Below the pieces are notes generated by a model. It was not told where the DNA came from. It saw only the letters and a list, made by a program, of their open reading frames with translations, and ran no database searches. A stretch of 64,000 bases of DNA, taken from the NCBI GenBank assembly GCA_902791035.1, contig CADAUA010000020.1:1-64000 (forward strand). The letters are read 5' to 3'. Of the stretch, positions 1,939-59,164 are shown one piece after another. A program made the position numbers and the translations under genes. The stretch comes from an uncultured Coriobacteriaceae bacterium (lineage in GTDB: Bacteria; Actinomycetota; Coriobacteriia; Coriobacteriales; Atopobiaceae). The first letter of the stretch is position 1; each line of letters opens with the position of its first letter.

Positions 1939-3576
1939 GTGGCCGAGAGGCACACCCATGGTCGCATGACCCGTACCGAGCAGCGCCGCCTGGCACGGAG
2001 CCGGACCGCCGCGGATGCGTACGCAGACGAGAACGAGGGGCCAGAGCAGGGAGATGGCGCCGCGGGCAGGCGTCGCTACGCGCGCGAGGTTCCAGACGAG
2101 CCTGTCTACCAGGCCAAACGCTTTCGTACCACGGACGACGGGACGGGTGACGGCTCGGCCTTTGGCACCGCCGGTCGCTCGCGCGACGTGACGCCAGCAC
2201 ACGCCGTGTCGCGCTATGTGGGCGCCGAGCGCTACAGCGAGAGGCGCCGCAAGCAGGGGCGCGGACGCGTGCTGCGCAACGTCCTTATCGCCGTGGCGGC
2301 CGTCGTCGTGGTGGCCGTCGTGGCCGTGGCCTGGTACATGGGTGACCTGAACAGCCGCCTGAGCGGCGACGTAAGCGACGACCTGCGCAACCAGCTCGTG
2401 TCGGTGGAGCCGCAGGACCCCTTCTACATGCTGCTCCTGGGCGTGGACAAGGACGAGGGCCGCTCCGAGGCCTGGGGTGACGACCAGTCCAACTTCCGGT
2501 CCGACACCATCATCCTGGCGCGCGTGGACCCGCCCGCGAAGAAGATCACCTTGGTGTCCATCCCCCGCGACACGCAGGTTGACATGGGCCAGAACGGCAA
2601 GCAGAAGATTAACGCCGCCTACTCCATCGGCGGACCGGCCTACATGGTGGAGGTCGTGTCCAAGTTTGCCGGGGTGGACATCTCGCACTACGCGGAGATC
2701 GACTTCGAGCAGTTCATCCGCATCGTAGACACCATCGGCGGCATCGAGGTGGACCTGCCCGTGCCGGTGTCCGACATGGAGCATGCCGGCATCGACCTAC
2801 CGGCCGGCAAGCAGACCCTGGACGGCACCCAGGCGCTCGGCCTCTGCCGTAGCCGTCATGCCTACGACGCCTACGGTGGCGGCGACTTCTATCGCGCGGC
2901 CAACCAGCGCATGGTCATCGGTGCCATCCTGCGCAAGGTGCTGGCGCTCGACCCCGTGAACATGTCGAGCGCAATCTCCACCATGGCGGACGGCGTGGAC
3001 ACGGACCTCTCCGTGACGGACATCCTGAGCCTGGCAACGCAGTTCAACGGGCTCGACGTGGACAAGGACGTCTACTCCGGCCAAACTCCCACCAACTCCG
3101 AGCTCACCGATGGCATTTGGTGGGAGATTCCCGACGCCGAGGGCTGGAAGACCATGATGGAGCACGTGGATGCGGGCGAGACCCCCTACTCCGACGCCTC
3201 GCAGGACTTTACCGCCGGCATAGCCGGCTCCGTGAGCAGCAACGGCCCCACCATCTCGTCCGGCGAGGGCGACGGGGCGGTAGAACGCGAATACTCGGGC
3301 ACCGTGCTCGTGCTCAACGGGACTGGCACCACTGGCTTGGCCAAGGACCGCTCCTCCGAGCTGGATGGCGCGGGATTCGAGGCCACGCCCGACAACGCCG
3401 GCAAGACCCAGCAGGCAACGGCCATCGTGTACAACGGGGACGGCAAGGCAAAGGCGCTGGGCGTAGCCTCCACACTGGGGGTGGACGACTCCCAGGTGAT
3501 AGAGAACGACGGGAGCTACTCCACCGAGACCGACGTGGTGGTGATCCTGGGCGAGGACCAGGTGAAGGACCAGTAG
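1939..3576 (+). CDS. LytR-CpsA-Psr (LCP) family cell-wall polymer ligase
   Basis: LCP proteins transfer lipid-linked glycopolymers onto peptidoglycan outside the cell. The protein is 545 residues with a GTG start preceded by GAGGAG. A basic, disordered cytoplasmic N-terminus of about 110 residues precedes one membrane segment (about 114-134). The LCP catalytic domain runs from about 162 to 335, with YMLLLGVD, RSDTIILARV and the arginine-rich SIPRDT and LCRSRHAYD motifs. A LytR_C domain occupies about 440-535 (TVLVLNGTGTTGLAKD). The gene is monocistronic and ends at a perfect 15-bp hairpin. Family assignment is firm; the polymer handled is unknown. Confidence 0.92.
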   Translation: MAERHTHGRMTRTEQRRLARSRTAADAYADENEGPEQGDGAAGRRRYAREVPDEPVYQAKRFRTTDDGTGDGSAFGTAGRSRDVTPAHAVSRYVGAERYSERRRKQGRGRVLRNVLIAVAAVVVVAVVAVAWYMGDLNSRLSGDVSDDLRNQLVSVEPQDPFYMLLLGVDKDEGRSEAWGDDQSNFRSDTIILARVDPPAKKITLVSIPRDTQVDMGQNGKQKINAAYSIGGPAYMVEVVSKFAGVDISHYAEIDFEQFIRIVDTIGGIEVDLPVPVSDMEHAGIDLPAGKQTLDGTQALGLCRSRHAYDAYGGGDFYRAANQRMVIGAILRKVLALDPVNMSSAISTMADGVDTDLSVTDILSLATQFNGLDVDKDVYSGQTPTNSELTDGIWWEIPDAEGWKTMMEHVDAGETPYSDASQDFTAGIAGSVSSNGPTISSGEGDGAVEREYSGTVLVLNGTGTTGLAKDRSSELDGAGFEATPDNAGKTQQATAIVYNGDGKAKALGVASTLGVDDSQVIENDGSYSTETDVVVILGEDQVKDQ

Positions 3577-24808: not shown

Positions 24809-24859
24809 CGTGACACGAGCTCCGACCCCGCGTGACACGAGCTCCGACCCCGTGTCACG
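24809..24859. repeat. GTGACA...CTCCGACCCC dispersed repeat, two copies
   Basis: Two direct copies; the second forms a 9-bp hairpin, CGTGACACG (24831-24839) with CGTGTCACG (24851-24859). It lies between two convergent genes and could act as a shared terminator. Confidence 0.75.
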
Positions 24860-27340: not shown

Positions 27341-27521
27341 GGTGACGGCAACTCCGACCCCGCGTGACAAAAGGTCAGACCCCTGGTGACGGCGGGGGCG
27401 TGACACGGGACCCGACCCCACGTGACAAAAGGTCAGACCCCTGGTGACAGCGGGGGCGTGACACGGGACCCGACCCCGCGTGACACGGGACCCGACCCCG
27501 CGTGACACGGGACCCGACCCC
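27341..27521. repeat. Cluster of GTGACA-type dispersed repeats
   Basis: At least seven copies: GTGACGGCAACTCCGACCCC, two copies of a 58-bp compound unit containing GTGACAAAAGGTCAGACCCC, and tandem CGTGACACGGGACCCGACCCC units. There is no coding content. It fills the gap 3' of clpB. Confidence 0.8.
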
Positions 27522-30423: not shown

Positions 30424-30535
30424 GGGGGGTCGGAGCTGCTGTCACGGGGGGTCGCTGTCACGGGGGGTCGGAGCTCGTGTCACGCAGTCAAGAGCGTGAC
30501 ACGAGCTCCGACCCCCCGTGACAGCAGCTCCGACC
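30424..30535. repeat. GTGACA-type repeats forming a 25-bp perfect hairpin
   Basis: Positions 30461-30485 and 30494-30518 are perfect reverse complements with an 8-base loop. Outer copies of GGGTCGGAGCTGCTGTCAC extend the symmetry. It lies 3' of hspR and may serve as the end of the dnaK operon transcript. Confidence 0.85.
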
Positions 30536-51959: not shown

Positions 51960-52045
51960 GCGTGACAGCAACTCCGACCCCGCGTCACGGAAGGCGTGAC
52001 AGCAACTCCGACCCCGCGTGACAGCAACTCCGACCCCGCGTCACG
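51960..52045. repeat. GTGACA-type repeats, three copies
   Basis: CGTGACAGCAACTCCGACCCC occurs three times, with GCGTCACG segments able to pair with GCGTGAC. It fills the gap between two convergent genes. Confidence 0.8.
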
Positions 52046-55286: not shown

Positions 55287-55400
55287 GCGTGACAAAGGGT
55301 CAGACCCCGGTGACGGCGTGACAAGAACTCCGACCCCACCGGCCGGGCGTGACAAGAACTCCGACCCCACCGGCCGGGCGTGACAAGAACTCCGACCCCA
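55287..55400. repeat. GTGACA-type tandem repeats upstream of the magnesium locus
   Basis: One GTGACAAAGGGTCAGACCCC copy is followed by three tandem 32-bp units (GCGTGACAAGAACTCCGACC plus a GGCCGGG spacer). There is no gene here. Confidence 0.8.
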
Positions 55401-55465
55401 CTGGCCAAGGGCGAGACTTTACGTGTGCGTGACAAACGCACCCCGGCGTCATGGCGGCCGTCGTG

Positions 55466-55620
55466 TAGAATGGCTGGTTGGACAACCGGCCACGGGAGGC
55501 CCTTGTCCGGGTCATCGCAACCAAAGAGAAAGGTCCTCATGAAACCCCGACCTCACAGTCGATGACCCCTCCGGCGTGCTCCGTTCGCGCCGCAGGGGTG
55601 TGAACAGCTAAGGAGCACGC
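55466..55620 (+). promoter_or_regulatory. Structured leader of the magnesium transport operon
   Basis: A -10-like TAGAAT (55466-55471) precedes a leader of about 143 bases. GGGTCATCG (55509-55517) is a perfect complement of CGATGACCC (55560-55568), and the right arm contains the stop codon of the 8-codon ORF. A second G+C-rich hairpin (CCCC...CGGCG with CGCCG...GGGG) lies at 55565-55598. It does not match the M-box magnesium riboswitch by eye. Confidence 0.55.
55539..55565 (+). CDS. Eight-codon leader peptide MKPRPHSR
   Basis: ATG AAA CCC CGA CCT CAC AGT CGA TGA, with AAAGG five bases before the ATG. Alternating prolines at positions 3 and 5 recall the MgtL leader, which senses magnesium through ribosome instability at proline-rich codons. 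Its stop codon lies in the right arm of the long-range helix, so translation would open that helix. Short size makes chance a real alternative. Confidence 0.45.
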   Translation: MKPRPHSR

Positions 55621-57453
55621 ATGATCTATCTGTCCCAACTTCTGGGAAATCCCGTCCTGGACTCGGACGGCGAGAAGATCGGCACCGTGTCTGACCTGGG
55701 CATCGCCACGGGCGAGATCTTCCCCCGCGTGACGAGCCTGGCCTTCATGGGACCCGGTCGCACGCCCTTCATGATCAGCTGGCGCAAGTACGTGGACGAC
55801 TTCGATGACGACGAGGTCCACCTCAAGGTCCCCGCCACCGACATCCGCTTCTCCTACCTGCAGCCCGACGAGGTACTTCTCGCCCGCGACATCCTGAACA
55901 AGCAGATCGTGGACACCCGCGGCATGCGCGTGGTGCGCGTGAACGACCTCAAGCTCTCGGACACGAGCTCCTCCCAGCTCCGCCTCCTGGGCGCCGAGGT
56001 GGGCATCCGCGGCATCCTGCGCACCCTGGCCCCCGGCCTGGAGCGCGCCACCCTCAAGGTCGCCCGGGTCTTCGGCAAGTCCATCCCCGAGCGCATCATC
56101 GCCTGGAACTACATGGACCTGGTGGAGCGCGACCTCTCCAACGTCAAGCTCTCCGTGAGCCACCAGACCCTCGACGACATGCACCCCGCCGACGTGGCCG
56201 ACATCATCGAGCGCCTGGACCCGCGCCTGCGCGGGCAGGTCTTCGCCCAGCTGGACGACGAGCAGCGCGCCGAGACCATGGCAGAGTTCGACGACGACCA
56301 GATGGCCGCCACCCTGGTGGGCGATATGCCCGAGGCCGACGCCTCCCGCATGCTCTCCGAGATGGACCCCGACGACGCCGCCGAGCTCGTGGCCGAGCTG
56401 GGCCAGGACCGCGCCGAGAAGCTCCTGCGCCTGATGGGCATCAAGGAGCAGCGCGCCATCCGCCAGCTCCTGGGCTACCCCGAGGACACTGCCGGCCGCA
56501 TCATGACCCAGGAGTTCGTGCAGCTCCCCGAGGACGCCAAGGTCGCGGACGCCATCCAGGCCCTGCGCGACCTGGACGAGGACTTCGAGACCGTCCACTA
56601 CATCTACCTGCACGACGACGAGCGCCGCCTCTCGGGCGTCGTCTCCCTCAACAACCTGATCGTGGCCACCGAGGGCACCACCCTGCACGACATCGCCTTC
56701 ACCGACATCGTGTCGTGCGAGCCCGACGAGGACCAAGAGGACGTGGCCGAGGACATCGCCAAGTACAACCTCCTGGCCATGCCCGTCGTGGACGAGAACA
56801 AGCACCTCCTGGGCATCGTCACGGTCGACGACGCCCTCGACGTCATGGACGAGGAGCACGAGGAGGACCTGCAGATAGCCGGCGCCTCCACGAACGACGA
56901 GTCCGGCACCCCGCACGACCTGGCCTGGCTCGTGCGGTCCGAGATGTGGGTGCTCGTGTGGCTGGTGGGCATCGGCATCATGGGCATGGCCGACCCGGCG
57001 CACTCCATGGGCACCAGCATCGCCCTGGCGGCACTGGCCCTGCCCGTGGCCATCGTGTCGGCCGGCGACGCCATCACCTACGTGACGAACTTCTTCATAG
57101 CCTACGACGAGGACGACGAGGACGCCCCCTCCATGCTGGGCTTTGCCCTCAAGGGCCTGGGCATGGGGCTGCTTTTGGCCATGCTGGTCCTGCTCATAGC
57201 CAGCGGCATCAACGTCACGCTCTTCTCGTCCGAGCCCCAGATGCAGTCCTACGCCTTCGCGAGCTTCCAGGCCGCGGCTGCCACCATAGTGGTCTCCGCC
57301 CTGCTCGAGCCCCTCTGGCTCCACATCCTGCGCCGCCGCGACGCACAGAACCTGGAGACCTCGGGCACCTCGCTCTCGGCCCTGGCCATGGTGATCGCGC
57401 TCGCGGTCTACCTCGTGGCCGTGGCGGTCCTTACGGGAGGGGTGGTGCTCTGA
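55621..57453 (+). CDS. MgtE-type magnesium-sensing protein (PRC barrel, MgtE_N, CBS pair, five membrane helices)
   Basis: 610 residues. One or two PRC-barrel domains (1-160) are followed by the MgtE_N superhelical domain (about 180-290, MHPADVADIIERLDPRLR and MDPDDAAELVAEL), a CBS pair (about 300-420), and a C-terminal membrane region with about five helices. The canonical MgtE channel signature (GGNxGxQ) is not seen, so this may be a magnesium sensor or partner rather than a classical channel. AAGGAG precedes the ATG. Its stop codon overlaps the start of the Nramp-related gene by one base. Confidence 0.85.
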   Translation: MIYLSQLLGNPVLDSDGEKIGTVSDLGIATGEIFPRVTSLAFMGPGRTPFMISWRKYVDDFDDDEVHLKVPATDIRFSYLQPDEVLLARDILNKQIVDTRGMRVVRVNDLKLSDTSSSQLRLLGAEVGIRGILRTLAPGLERATLKVARVFGKSIPERIIAWNYMDLVERDLSNVKLSVSHQTLDDMHPADVADIIERLDPRLRGQVFAQLDDEQRAETMAEFDDDQMAATLVGDMPEADASRMLSEMDPDDAAELVAELGQDRAEKLLRLMGIKEQRAIRQLLGYPEDTAGRIMTQEFVQLPEDAKVADAIQALRDLDEDFETVHYIYLHDDERRLSGVVSLNNLIVATEGTTLHDIAFTDIVSCEPDEDQEDVAEDIAKYNLLAMPVVDENKHLLGIVTVDDALDVMDEEHEEDLQIAGASTNDESGTPHDLAWLVRSEMWVLVWLVGIGIMGMADPAHSMGTSIALAALALPVAIVSAGDAITYVTNFFIAYDEDDEDAPSMLGFALKGLGMGLLLAMLVLLIASGINVTLFSSEPQMQSYAFASFQAAAATIVVSALLEPLWLHILRRRDAQNLETSGTSLSALAMVIALAVYLVAVAVLTGGVVL

Positions 57454-58844
57454 TGGCCGACAAGGACAAGGACCTCCGGCGGCGAGGCGGGGCGGCCGGC
57501 GCGGCCGGGGCGGATGCGGCCGGGGCGGCTGGGACGACCGGGGCAACCCCCGAGACCGGGACGTCCCTCGAGACCGGCTCGGGCAGCACGACCTTCTCGC
57601 CCGCAAACCACGACACGGCAAGGAAGGCCGGCGCCCTGGCCATGCTCTCCAGCATGGGGCCCGGCCTTCTAACCGCGCTCGCCGGCAATGACGCCGGCGG
57701 CATCGCCACCTACTCCTCGGCCGGCGCGAGCTACGGCTTTGGCATGCTCTGGACCGTGCCCCTCATGTGCCTCCTGCTCATCGTGGTGCAGGAGACGGCC
57801 GCCCGCATGGGCTGCGCCACCGGCAAGGGCTTCGCGTCGCTTATCCGCGAGCGCTTTGGCATCCGCATCACCGCGCTCGCCATGCTGACGCTGATAATAT
57901 CAAACTTTGCAGTTAACCTCTCCGAGTTCGCCGGCATCGCCTCGGGCATGGCGCTCTTTGGCGTGCCCGTGTACGTGAGCGTGCCCGTGGCCGCCGTGGC
58001 TACCTGGCTGCTCGTGATGAGCGGGTCATACCGCCGCGTGGAGAAGGTCCTCCTGGCCATCAGCTGCGTCTTCGTGACCTATGTGGTTGCAGGATTCATG
58101 GCTCAACCCGACTGGGGCCTGGCCATCCACGACACCATCGTCCCCCAGATCCCCAACGACCTCTCGTATGTGAGCCTGCTGGTGGCAAACGTGGGCACCA
58201 CGATAAGCCCCTACATGATCTTCATGGTGGCGAGCGACGTGGTGGAGAAGAACCTCGACGAGGCCGACATCCCCGGCCAGCGGGCCGACAACGCGAGCGG
58301 CGCCATCGTGGCCGAGCTTATCACCTGGTTCATCATCATGACCACGGGCACCGTGCTCTTCCCCGCCGGCATCGAGGTAAACGAGGCCGCCGACGCCGCC
58401 AAGGCCCTGGAGCCACTCGCCGGCCAGTACGCCTCCGGGATGTTTGCCGCGGGGCTCGTGGGCGCGTCCTTCCTGGCGGCCTGCGTCATGCCGGGCATCA
58501 CCGCCGGCGCCGTGTGCGAGGCCTTTGGCTGGGAGCGCGGGACCAACCAGACCATGCGCGAGGCGCCCGTGTACTACGGCATGATCACCGTGATCACCCT
58601 GCTCTCGGCCGTGATCGTGCTGATCCCGGGCGCGGACCTCTTTGGGATCATGATGGTCGCGCAGGTGATAAACGGTGTCATGCTGCCGGTGCTGCTCGTG
58701 TGCATGGTGCTGATCGCGAGCGACAAGCGCGTGATGGGCAAGTGGGCCAACAGCCGCCTGTGGAACGCGCTCACCTGGTTCACGATCGTGGCCGTGGTGG
58801 TCCTCACCGTGATGATGTTCGTCCTCCAGGCCATGGGCCTCTAG
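57453..58844 (+). CDS. Nramp-related magnesium transporter (NRMT-like)
   Basis: A predicted divalent-cation transporter of the SLC11 fold. The protein is 463 residues with an Ala/Gly-rich N-terminus (about 60) and 11 or so membrane helices. Helix 1 has Asp80 in GNDAGGIATYS where classical Nramp has DPGN, and helix 6 has SPYM (252-255) where classical Nramp has MPHN. Loss of the metal-coordinating Met and Asn is the mark of magnesium-transporting Nramp relatives, first described from Eggerthella lenta. Translationally coupled to the MgtE-type gene (TGATG). Transport of Mg2+ is inferred. Confidence 0.85.
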   Translation: MADKDKDLRRRGGAAGAAGADAAGAAGTTGATPETGTSLETGSGSTTFSPANHDTARKAGALAMLSSMGPGLLTALAGNDAGGIATYSSAGASYGFGMLWTVPLMCLLLIVVQETAARMGCATGKGFASLIRERFGIRITALAMLTLIISNFAVNLSEFAGIASGMALFGVPVYVSVPVAAVATWLLVMSGSYRRVEKVLLAISCVFVTYVVAGFMAQPDWGLAIHDTIVPQIPNDLSYVSLLVANVGTTISPYMIFMVASDVVEKNLDEADIPGQRADNASGAIVAELITWFIIMTTGTVLFPAGIEVNEAADAAKALEPLAGQYASGMFAAGLVGASFLAACVMPGITAGAVCEAFGWERGTNQTMREAPVYYGMITVITLLSAVIVLIPGADLFGIMMVAQVINGVMLPVLLVCMVLIASDKRVMGKWANSRLWNALTWFTIVAVVVLTVMMFVLQAMGL

Positions 58845-58849
58845 CCTGG

Positions 58850-58926
58850 GGTCGCCTCTAGCCTGGGGTCGGAGCTCGTGTCACGGTCATTGGGGCCGGC
58901 TGCCAGTGGGGTCTGACCTTTTGTCA
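58850..58926. repeat. GTGACA-type repeats after the magnesium operon
   Basis: CTAGCCTGGGGTCG is duplicated, followed by GGTCGGAGCTCGTGTCAC and GGGGTCTGACCTTTTGTCAC, both in inverse orientation to most other copies. Confidence 0.75.
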
Positions 58927-59082: not shown

Positions 59083-59164
59083 CGCGTGACAGCAGCTCCG
59101 ACCCCGCGTGACATGGCCCCGCGTGACAGCAGCTCCGACCCCGCGTGACAGCAGCTCCGACCCC
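59083..59164. repeat. GTGACA-type repeats 3' of mtnA
   Basis: Three CGCGTGACAGCAGCTCCGACC copies and a truncated GCGTGACATGGCCCC copy in direct orientation, ending 26 bases from the mtnA stop. Confidence 0.8.

Follow-up and report, generated by a model that had tools for sequence, protein, structure and literature searches.

A short upstream open reading frame and three covarying helices as a probable translation-linked control element of a Mg2+ transport operon in Coriobacteriia

An eight-codon upstream open reading frame (uORF) and a set of overlapping RNA helices precede a Mg2+ transport operon in the 64-kb window, that is, the whole stretch of DNA analysed here. Comparison with the leaders of related bacteria indicates that the conserved uORF and helices very probably constitute a translation-linked magnesium control element. 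No previous report of this uORF was found in a literature search limited to open-licence papers, and the window leader (55400–55700) gave no Rfam match at E values up to 10.

The leader ORF and its relatives

The uORF (55539–55565, + strand) is composed of eight codons and a stop, ATG AAA CCC CGA CCT CAC AGT CGA TGA, and encodes MKPRPHSR. The initial annotation had placed the ORF correctly to the base and had noted its ribosome-binding site. The elements in this part of the window are as follows.

55315–55406, 51962–52037, 24810–24851, 27342–27361, 30426–30515, 58865–58884, and 59086–59164: repeat family around GTGACAAGAACTCCGACCCC (window positions)
55466–55471, + strand: TAGAAT, candidate −10 box (sequence; TANAAT at a similar place in several relatives)
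55472–55491, + strand: 5′ hairpin GGCTGGTT/AACCGGCC, start of the presumed leader (fold)
55525–55533, + strand: ribosome-binding site AGAGAAAGG of the uORF (sequence; AGAGAAGG-like in nearly all relatives)
55539–55565, + strand: uORF, MKPRPHSR and stop (sequence, conservation, and codon-change counts)

The assignment of TAGAAT as a −10 box is presumptive, because a promoter scan gave no −35/−10 pair in the window leader. No intrinsic terminator was found on the + strand of this leader. The seemingly intergenic repeats number 16 copies in the window, compared to 0.01 expected, and partly form 31-bp tandem copies just upstream of the presumed promoter of the leader.

A pattern search detected the uORF in 106 of the 140 genomes of the family, almost always as a single copy and at this operon, and the reversed pattern matched nowhere in the same genomes. 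Extra sites in two genomes (G051 and G108) were rejected as matches with three mismatches. A second perfect copy in G129 was also rejected; it sits at the end of a contig, and the same leader sequence follows it. Throughout the class, 167 distinct leaders were found to carry a uORF, with lengths of 6–11 codons. When the leaders were assigned to families by names inferred from named loci, the Atopobiaceae form was MKPRPHSR, the Coriobacteriaceae form MK[SP]KPRPHS[RS], and the Eggerthellaceae form MKVRKxKPHS[KNML]; six-codon uORFs (MKPHSP, MTPSSP, and MRPFSQ) occur in deep branches, where many leaders end in S-P-stop. The lengths differ between families by whole codons. The common core is P-x-S(AGT)-x-stop, and its proline, the fourth codon before the end, is present in all of the Atopobiaceae and Coriobacteriaceae leaders, 27 of the 29 deep leaders, and 24 of the 34 Eggerthellaceae leaders. 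Lysine or arginine, not aspartate or glutamate, stands beside proline in nearly all uORFs. Alignment of the leader across relatives, which had been set beforehand as a test, thus showed the ORF and a covarying helix to be conserved, but the proline-containing core to be lost in a Slackia-type subgroup that retains the N-terminal MKVRK. None of 40 homologous leaders from outside the class contained the uORF, in support of a restriction to Coriobacteriia; among the leaders compared, the uORF family appears to be confined to this class. Just upstream of the SD sequence of the uORF, there is also a patch, CTGTAGCCNAAGAGA (CTGCAGTCTAAGAGAA in many Atopobiaceae), that is more conserved than the SD needs (L275–L287).

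The pattern of substitutions shows that the uORF evolves as a coding sequence. Changes counted along a tree built from the first genes of 77 Atopobiaceae numbered 4, 11, and 24 at codon positions 1, 2, and 3, respectively. Twenty of the 30 sense-codon changes were synonymous (24% expected, P about 7e-7), and all stop-codon changes yielded another stop (TGA, TAG, or TAA), while codon 6 (His) is free to vary. The distance from the NTGA start to AGTNNN-stop was a multiple of three in 187 of 190 cases, a regularity that is partly built in because the leaders were chosen partly by their in-frame ORF. The AGT codon is used in all of the 66 Atopobiaceae, 18 Coriobacteriaceae, and 29 deep leaders tabulated, and neither this AGT (Ser) nor the first CGA (Arg) was ever changed to a synonym. 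The codon-usage reference consisted of the four window genes and the first genes of relatives: in the Atopobiaceae first genes, AGT encodes 24 of 801 Ser residues and CGA 23 of 749 Arg residues, and AGT, AAA, and CCT are absent from the four window genes. The invariance of AGT and CGA despite their rarity suggests a constraint on bases or codons, not on residues alone; either slow codons are selected, or the bases are needed for structure.

Three overlapping helices

The helices of the window leader are listed below.

55509–55517, + strand: helix A, left arm, GGGTCATCG (sequence, fold, and covariation)
55560–55568, + strand: helix A, right arm, CGATGACCC, holding the uORF stop codon (sequence and covariation)
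55565–55576, + strand: helix B, left arm, ACCCCT and CGGCG (covariation and duplex energy)
55588–55599, + strand: helix B, right arm, CGCCG and AGGGGT (covariation and duplex energy)
55574–55582, + strand: helix C, left arm, GCGTGCTCC, anti-SD (fold and covariation)
55612–55620, + strand: helix C, right arm, GGAGCACGC, covering the SD of the first operon gene (fold and covariation)

The two arms of helix A are perfectly complementary over 9 bp, and the uORF stop codon (55563–55565) is located inside the right arm, exactly as the initial annotation had described; it had overlooked helices B and C, on which the output would depend. In most relatives, the equivalent of the left arm lies on the SD of the uORF itself, at −8 to −1. 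Helix C, likewise a perfect 9-bp helix, extends to the operon's start codon. Helices A and B overlap by 4 nt (55565–55568), and helices B and C by 3 nt (55574–55576). For the window leader, helix B alone amounts to −19.7 kcal/mol, the MFE fold includes helix A, and folding is better than that of dinucleotide shuffles (z −2.6). A single 9-bp helix is weak evidence by itself, because at least one perfect helix of this length is found in 3.9% of the dinucleotide shuffles of this 155-nt GC-rich leader. Two such helices, as in the window leader, are found in 1.5%. Taken alone, the window helices are only moderately above chance. This doubt is removed by the relatives: non-conservation there had been named in advance as evidence against the proposal, and the ORF and the helix turned out to be conserved class-wide.

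The arms of helix A change jointly among relatives, as seen in the pairs GGACCT/AGGTCC, GGGCCTA/TAGGCCC, GGGTCT/AGACCC, GGTCATCG/CGATGACC, GGCTATTG/CGATAGCC, GGTCAGC/GCTGACC, and GGGCTAC/GTAGCCC. In each of the six Atopobiaceae leaders whose uORF stops with TAG, the left arm has matching GGCT, GGGC, or GGCC changes. For helix A in 20 deep leaders, a formal count showed 95% paired cells, with nine cells changed on both sides, and the covariation score was reached by none of 500 shuffles. In a strand-exchange test on 126 representatives, with permutations that ignore phylogeny, the own strands were better than permuted strands for helices A (z 12), B (z 13.7), and C (z 14.6). An upstream control pair gave a z of −0.7; a second control pair, the left arm of helix C with a stretch upstream of its right arm, gave a z of 4.9, and the complementarity signal is therefore partly diffuse. 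Helix B is unsupported in the Coriobacteriaceae group (z −1.2). The comparison of leaders as a whole shows that helices A, B, and C covary, with an arrangement in which A would exclude B, and C would close the SD of the first gene while sharing bases with B. A TCGAC/GTCGA inner hairpin of the Atopobiaceae was discarded as a class feature, because it is broken by codon-8 variants and in several Coriobacteriaceae.

The downstream operon and the M-box

Two genes follow the leader.

55621–57453, + strand: gene 1, PRC-barrel, MgtE_N, CBS, and a C-terminal membrane part, MgtE-like (domain search)
57453–58844, + strand: gene 2, NRAMP-related Mg2+ transporter, NRMT type (similarity to EleNRMT)

The stop codon of gene 1 overlaps the start of gene 2, and gene 2 is directly 3′ of gene 1 in 80 of 80 related loci. 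The Pfam search assigned PRC, MgtE_N, and two CBS domains to gene 1 and did not find the Pfam MgtE membrane domain; the TIGR00400 score (219.7 bits) is below the cut-off (232.75). The earlier designation "MgtE-type gene" is hence roughly right with respect to the MgtE_N and CBS domains, but not to the membrane domain. The solved structure closest to gene 2 is EleNRMT of Eggerthella lenta (7QIA/7QIC, E 7e-149), with which it has the GNDAGG motif in common, and the earlier term "magnesium operon" holds in the sense of a Mg2+ transport operon. Mg2+ transport by EleNRMT has been shown in proteoliposomes (PMC8806188). By these similarities, gene 2 is likelier than gene 1 to be the transporter of the operon. 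The first genes of Atopobiaceae encode about 610 aa with the C-terminal membrane part, and those of Eggerthellaceae (L072–L108) about 450 aa without it, the leader being kept.

Operons consisting of an MgtE_N fragment and nramp have already been linked to M-box riboswitches (PMC4072509). The M-box covariance model (RF00380) had no match over the 64 kb of the window, and none in 55400–55700 at E values up to 10, bearing out the earlier statement that the leader is not an M-box. M-boxes were found in 56 of the 199 class genomes. With a covariance model of the deep-branch uORF, matches at E below 0.01 were obtained in 49 genomes; an M-box precedes the uORF on the same strand in 48 of these, and in the remaining one the contig ends there. 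The distance from the M-box to the uORF was 97–182 nt in 13 leaders measured and is about 90–190 nt overall. Between the two elements, a strong GC hairpin runs into T-rich sequence, resembling an intrinsic terminator, and is accompanied by a conserved CTGTAGCCNAAGAGA-like patch. No M-box was found at the MgtE/NRMT locus in the order Coriobacteriales. The only two M-boxes found in this order both precede P-type cation ATPases of the MgtA kind (L273, 352–510; L274, 337–494), and the MgtE/NRMT operons of the same genomes are without an M-box. One of the two genomes, G283 (L179), is also without the uORF. An M-box without the uORF occurs in G261 and in several leaders from other classes. By these distributions, the M-box alone, the M-box with the uORF, and the uORF alone all exist at one operon type. 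The position of the M-box upstream of the uORF is the strongest, though indirect, support for Mg2+ as the probable signal.

Other elements were noticed outside the class. In L269, from another class, a c-di-GMP-II riboswitch (3209–3274, 57.7 bits) is located downstream of an M-box-controlled MgtE_N gene. A different leader without an Rfam match is shared by homologous genes of another class, in L234, L236, L237, L240, L242, and L243; in it, a stretch similar to CTTGATCTGAT precedes a CCCTCTTCC(T)GAGGG hairpin, after which there is a T-run.

A possible switch, its alternatives, and known systems

The partition function of the leaders was calculated with masked codons mimicking a stalled ribosome, in a model that excludes pseudoknots (B loop with SD). 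In the free leaders, helices A and C were dominant and B was rare. Masking the start region or codon 3 raised the expected pairs of B from 1.7 to 7.5 and lowered those of C from 8.9 to 5.3 in the Eggerthellaceae; the corresponding changes were 3.2 to 6.3 and 6.8 to 5.2 in the deep group and, more weakly, 2.5 to 4.3 and 9.0 to 7.5 in the Atopobiaceae. The Coriobacteriaceae leaders hardly responded to masking. With the stop codon masked, C stayed closed except in the deep group, where it fell. The predicted change in SD accessibility was small in every group. In the leader of the window itself, C was closed in every scenario and B never formed, which lends no support to the translation-linked switching that the initial annotation had proposed for this genome. 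The model supports possible switching in many relatives but not in this leader, and the masking results would fit a scheme in which slow uORF translation turns the operon on, the same sign as in mgtL. The direction is put forward as a hypothesis, because the SD change is small, the Coriobacteriaceae and window leaders barely respond, and pseudoknots are excluded.

We have moderate confidence that a translated uORF gates an RNA switch composed of helices A, B, and C in this Mg2+ operon; the direction of switching, the step at which sensing occurs, and the response to Mg2+ are inferred. The leader would act in cis, linking translation to a Mg2+ uptake operon. In the resting RNA, A and C would be formed and both ribosome sites restricted. 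A ribosome delayed early on the uORF by slowly read Pro and rare codons, the situation expected when Mg2+ is low, would open A and free the arm with the stop codon, so that B could form and C open, allowing translation of the MgtE-like protein and the NRMT. A ribosome running fast to the stop codon would cover the left arm of B, C would persist, and the operon would stay low. In deep-branching relatives, the M-box and the terminator-like hairpin precede this uORF module; in the Coriobacteriales, where the M-box is absent from the locus, the module is the only recognisable leader element.

The stall might instead occur at termination. The nascent P-x-S-x would then cause an arrest on the uORF stop codon, and the arrested ribosome, covering the left arm of B (in six-codon leaders also the anti-SD), would set the state of the downstream SD. 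Conservation of the peptide is indeed highest at its C-terminus, PxS(AGT)x-stop, S-P-stop is the ending of many deep leaders, and masking of the stop codon lowers C, though in the deep group only. We regard such an arrest as unlikely, since the final sense codon is free to encode many different residues (R, K, S, P, M, N, L, Q, and others), the x residue is also variable, the PxS motif is missing from the Slackia-type leaders, and a ribosome at the stop codon leaves C closed in the Atopobiaceae, Coriobacteriaceae, and Eggerthellaceae. The rare AGT and first CGA, never synonymously changed, could alternatively belong to an RNA that senses metal through helix A and its loop, as a new aptamer or a fold of similar kind; the ORF would then only set ribosome loading, and the peptide would be irrelevant. 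The strong coding signature, loop insertions of 6–15 nt in whole codons, swaps among the three stops, and the absence of an Rfam match at any score make this quite improbable.

Two further explanations dispense with the RNA switch. The peptide itself might act, for example, as a micro-subunit of the transporter, with the helices only tuning its translation; there is a precedent in the conserved uORFs after mycobacterial M-boxes, which have been proposed to encode functional peptides (PMC12810186). Here, however, the peptide of deep lineages is as short as six residues, of which hardly any but P and S are constant, and its stop codon is inside a covarying helix, so that we consider a role of this kind very unlikely. 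It is hardly credible that the inverted repeat GGGTCAT...ATGACCC is a DNA operator for a metal regulator, even though it forms an imperfect palindrome near the presumed promoter with one copy per genome: the arms differ completely between families and yet are complementary (GGACCT, GGGCCTA, GGTCATCG, and AAGGTT), their spacing is variable, the ORF is under coding selection, and the element of deep lineages is far inside the M-box transcript. We prefer the switch gated by the uORF.

The best-documented cases of Mg2+ transporters controlled by leader peptides are those of enterobacteria. In MgtL, Pro codons are located at positions 3, 5, 7, and 9, and mutually exclusive stem-loops are coupled to translation (PMC6460261, PMC6335274, PMC11552253). 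When mgtL is translated slowly at its m1G37-dependent codons for Pro, Leu, and Arg, as happens at low Mg2+, mgtA is turned on (PMC6335274), and acidic residues together with Pro were reported to be important (PMC11552253). Like mgtL of Salmonella mgtA (and mgtP, mgtQ, and corL), the present leader places a short, Pro-containing ORF ahead of a Mg2+ transporter gene; the arm with the stop codon is common to helices A and B, which covary, and coupling to translation is presumed here. It differs in having 6–11 codons compared to 17 and K or R compared to D or E beside Pro, and no shared sequence was seen by eye against the published features of mgtL. Its output looks like SD sequestration, with no evidence for Rho, and the phylum and the transporter families are different. 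The likeness to MgtL pointed out in the initial annotation is thus apparently one of analogy (a Pro-containing ORF at a Mg2+ operon), not of homology.

The M-box (ykoK, RF00380) of mgtE-nramp operons serves a homologous operon type (PMC4072509) and lies upstream of the same uORF in deep Coriobacteriia, but the uORF module lies downstream of it as an element of its own. The M. tuberculosis pe20 M-box with uORF2 (Rv1805A) is comparable as a conserved small uORF after an M-box at a Mg2+-related operon, forming a translational platform, although its peptide was reported to be specific to mycobacteria (PMC12810186); the ORF of Coriobacteriia is different and shorter and occurs without an M-box in the Coriobacteriales. 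In M. tuberculosis, atypical B12 riboswitches coupled to uORF translation represent another interplay of riboswitch and uORF in an actinomycete, with another ligand and other genes (PMC11260477).

The Coriobacteriia leader would add to these an unrelated, class-wide case in the Actinomycetota, including the genera Collinsella, Eggerthella, and Olsenella, in which the conserved leader ORF is very short. The series of M-box alone, M-box with uORF, and uORF alone allows the supplementation or replacement of a riboswitch by translation-based sensing to be tested at one operon, together with whether the ribosome reads low Mg2+ through Pro or rare codons. Only tentatively do we suggest that the 6–11-codon ORF and the three alternating helices might be a self-sufficient Mg2+ sensor, in tandem with the M-box in deep lineages and in place of it in the Coriobacteriales. 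If this were true, the ribosome would have taken over the sensing task of a metal aptamer.
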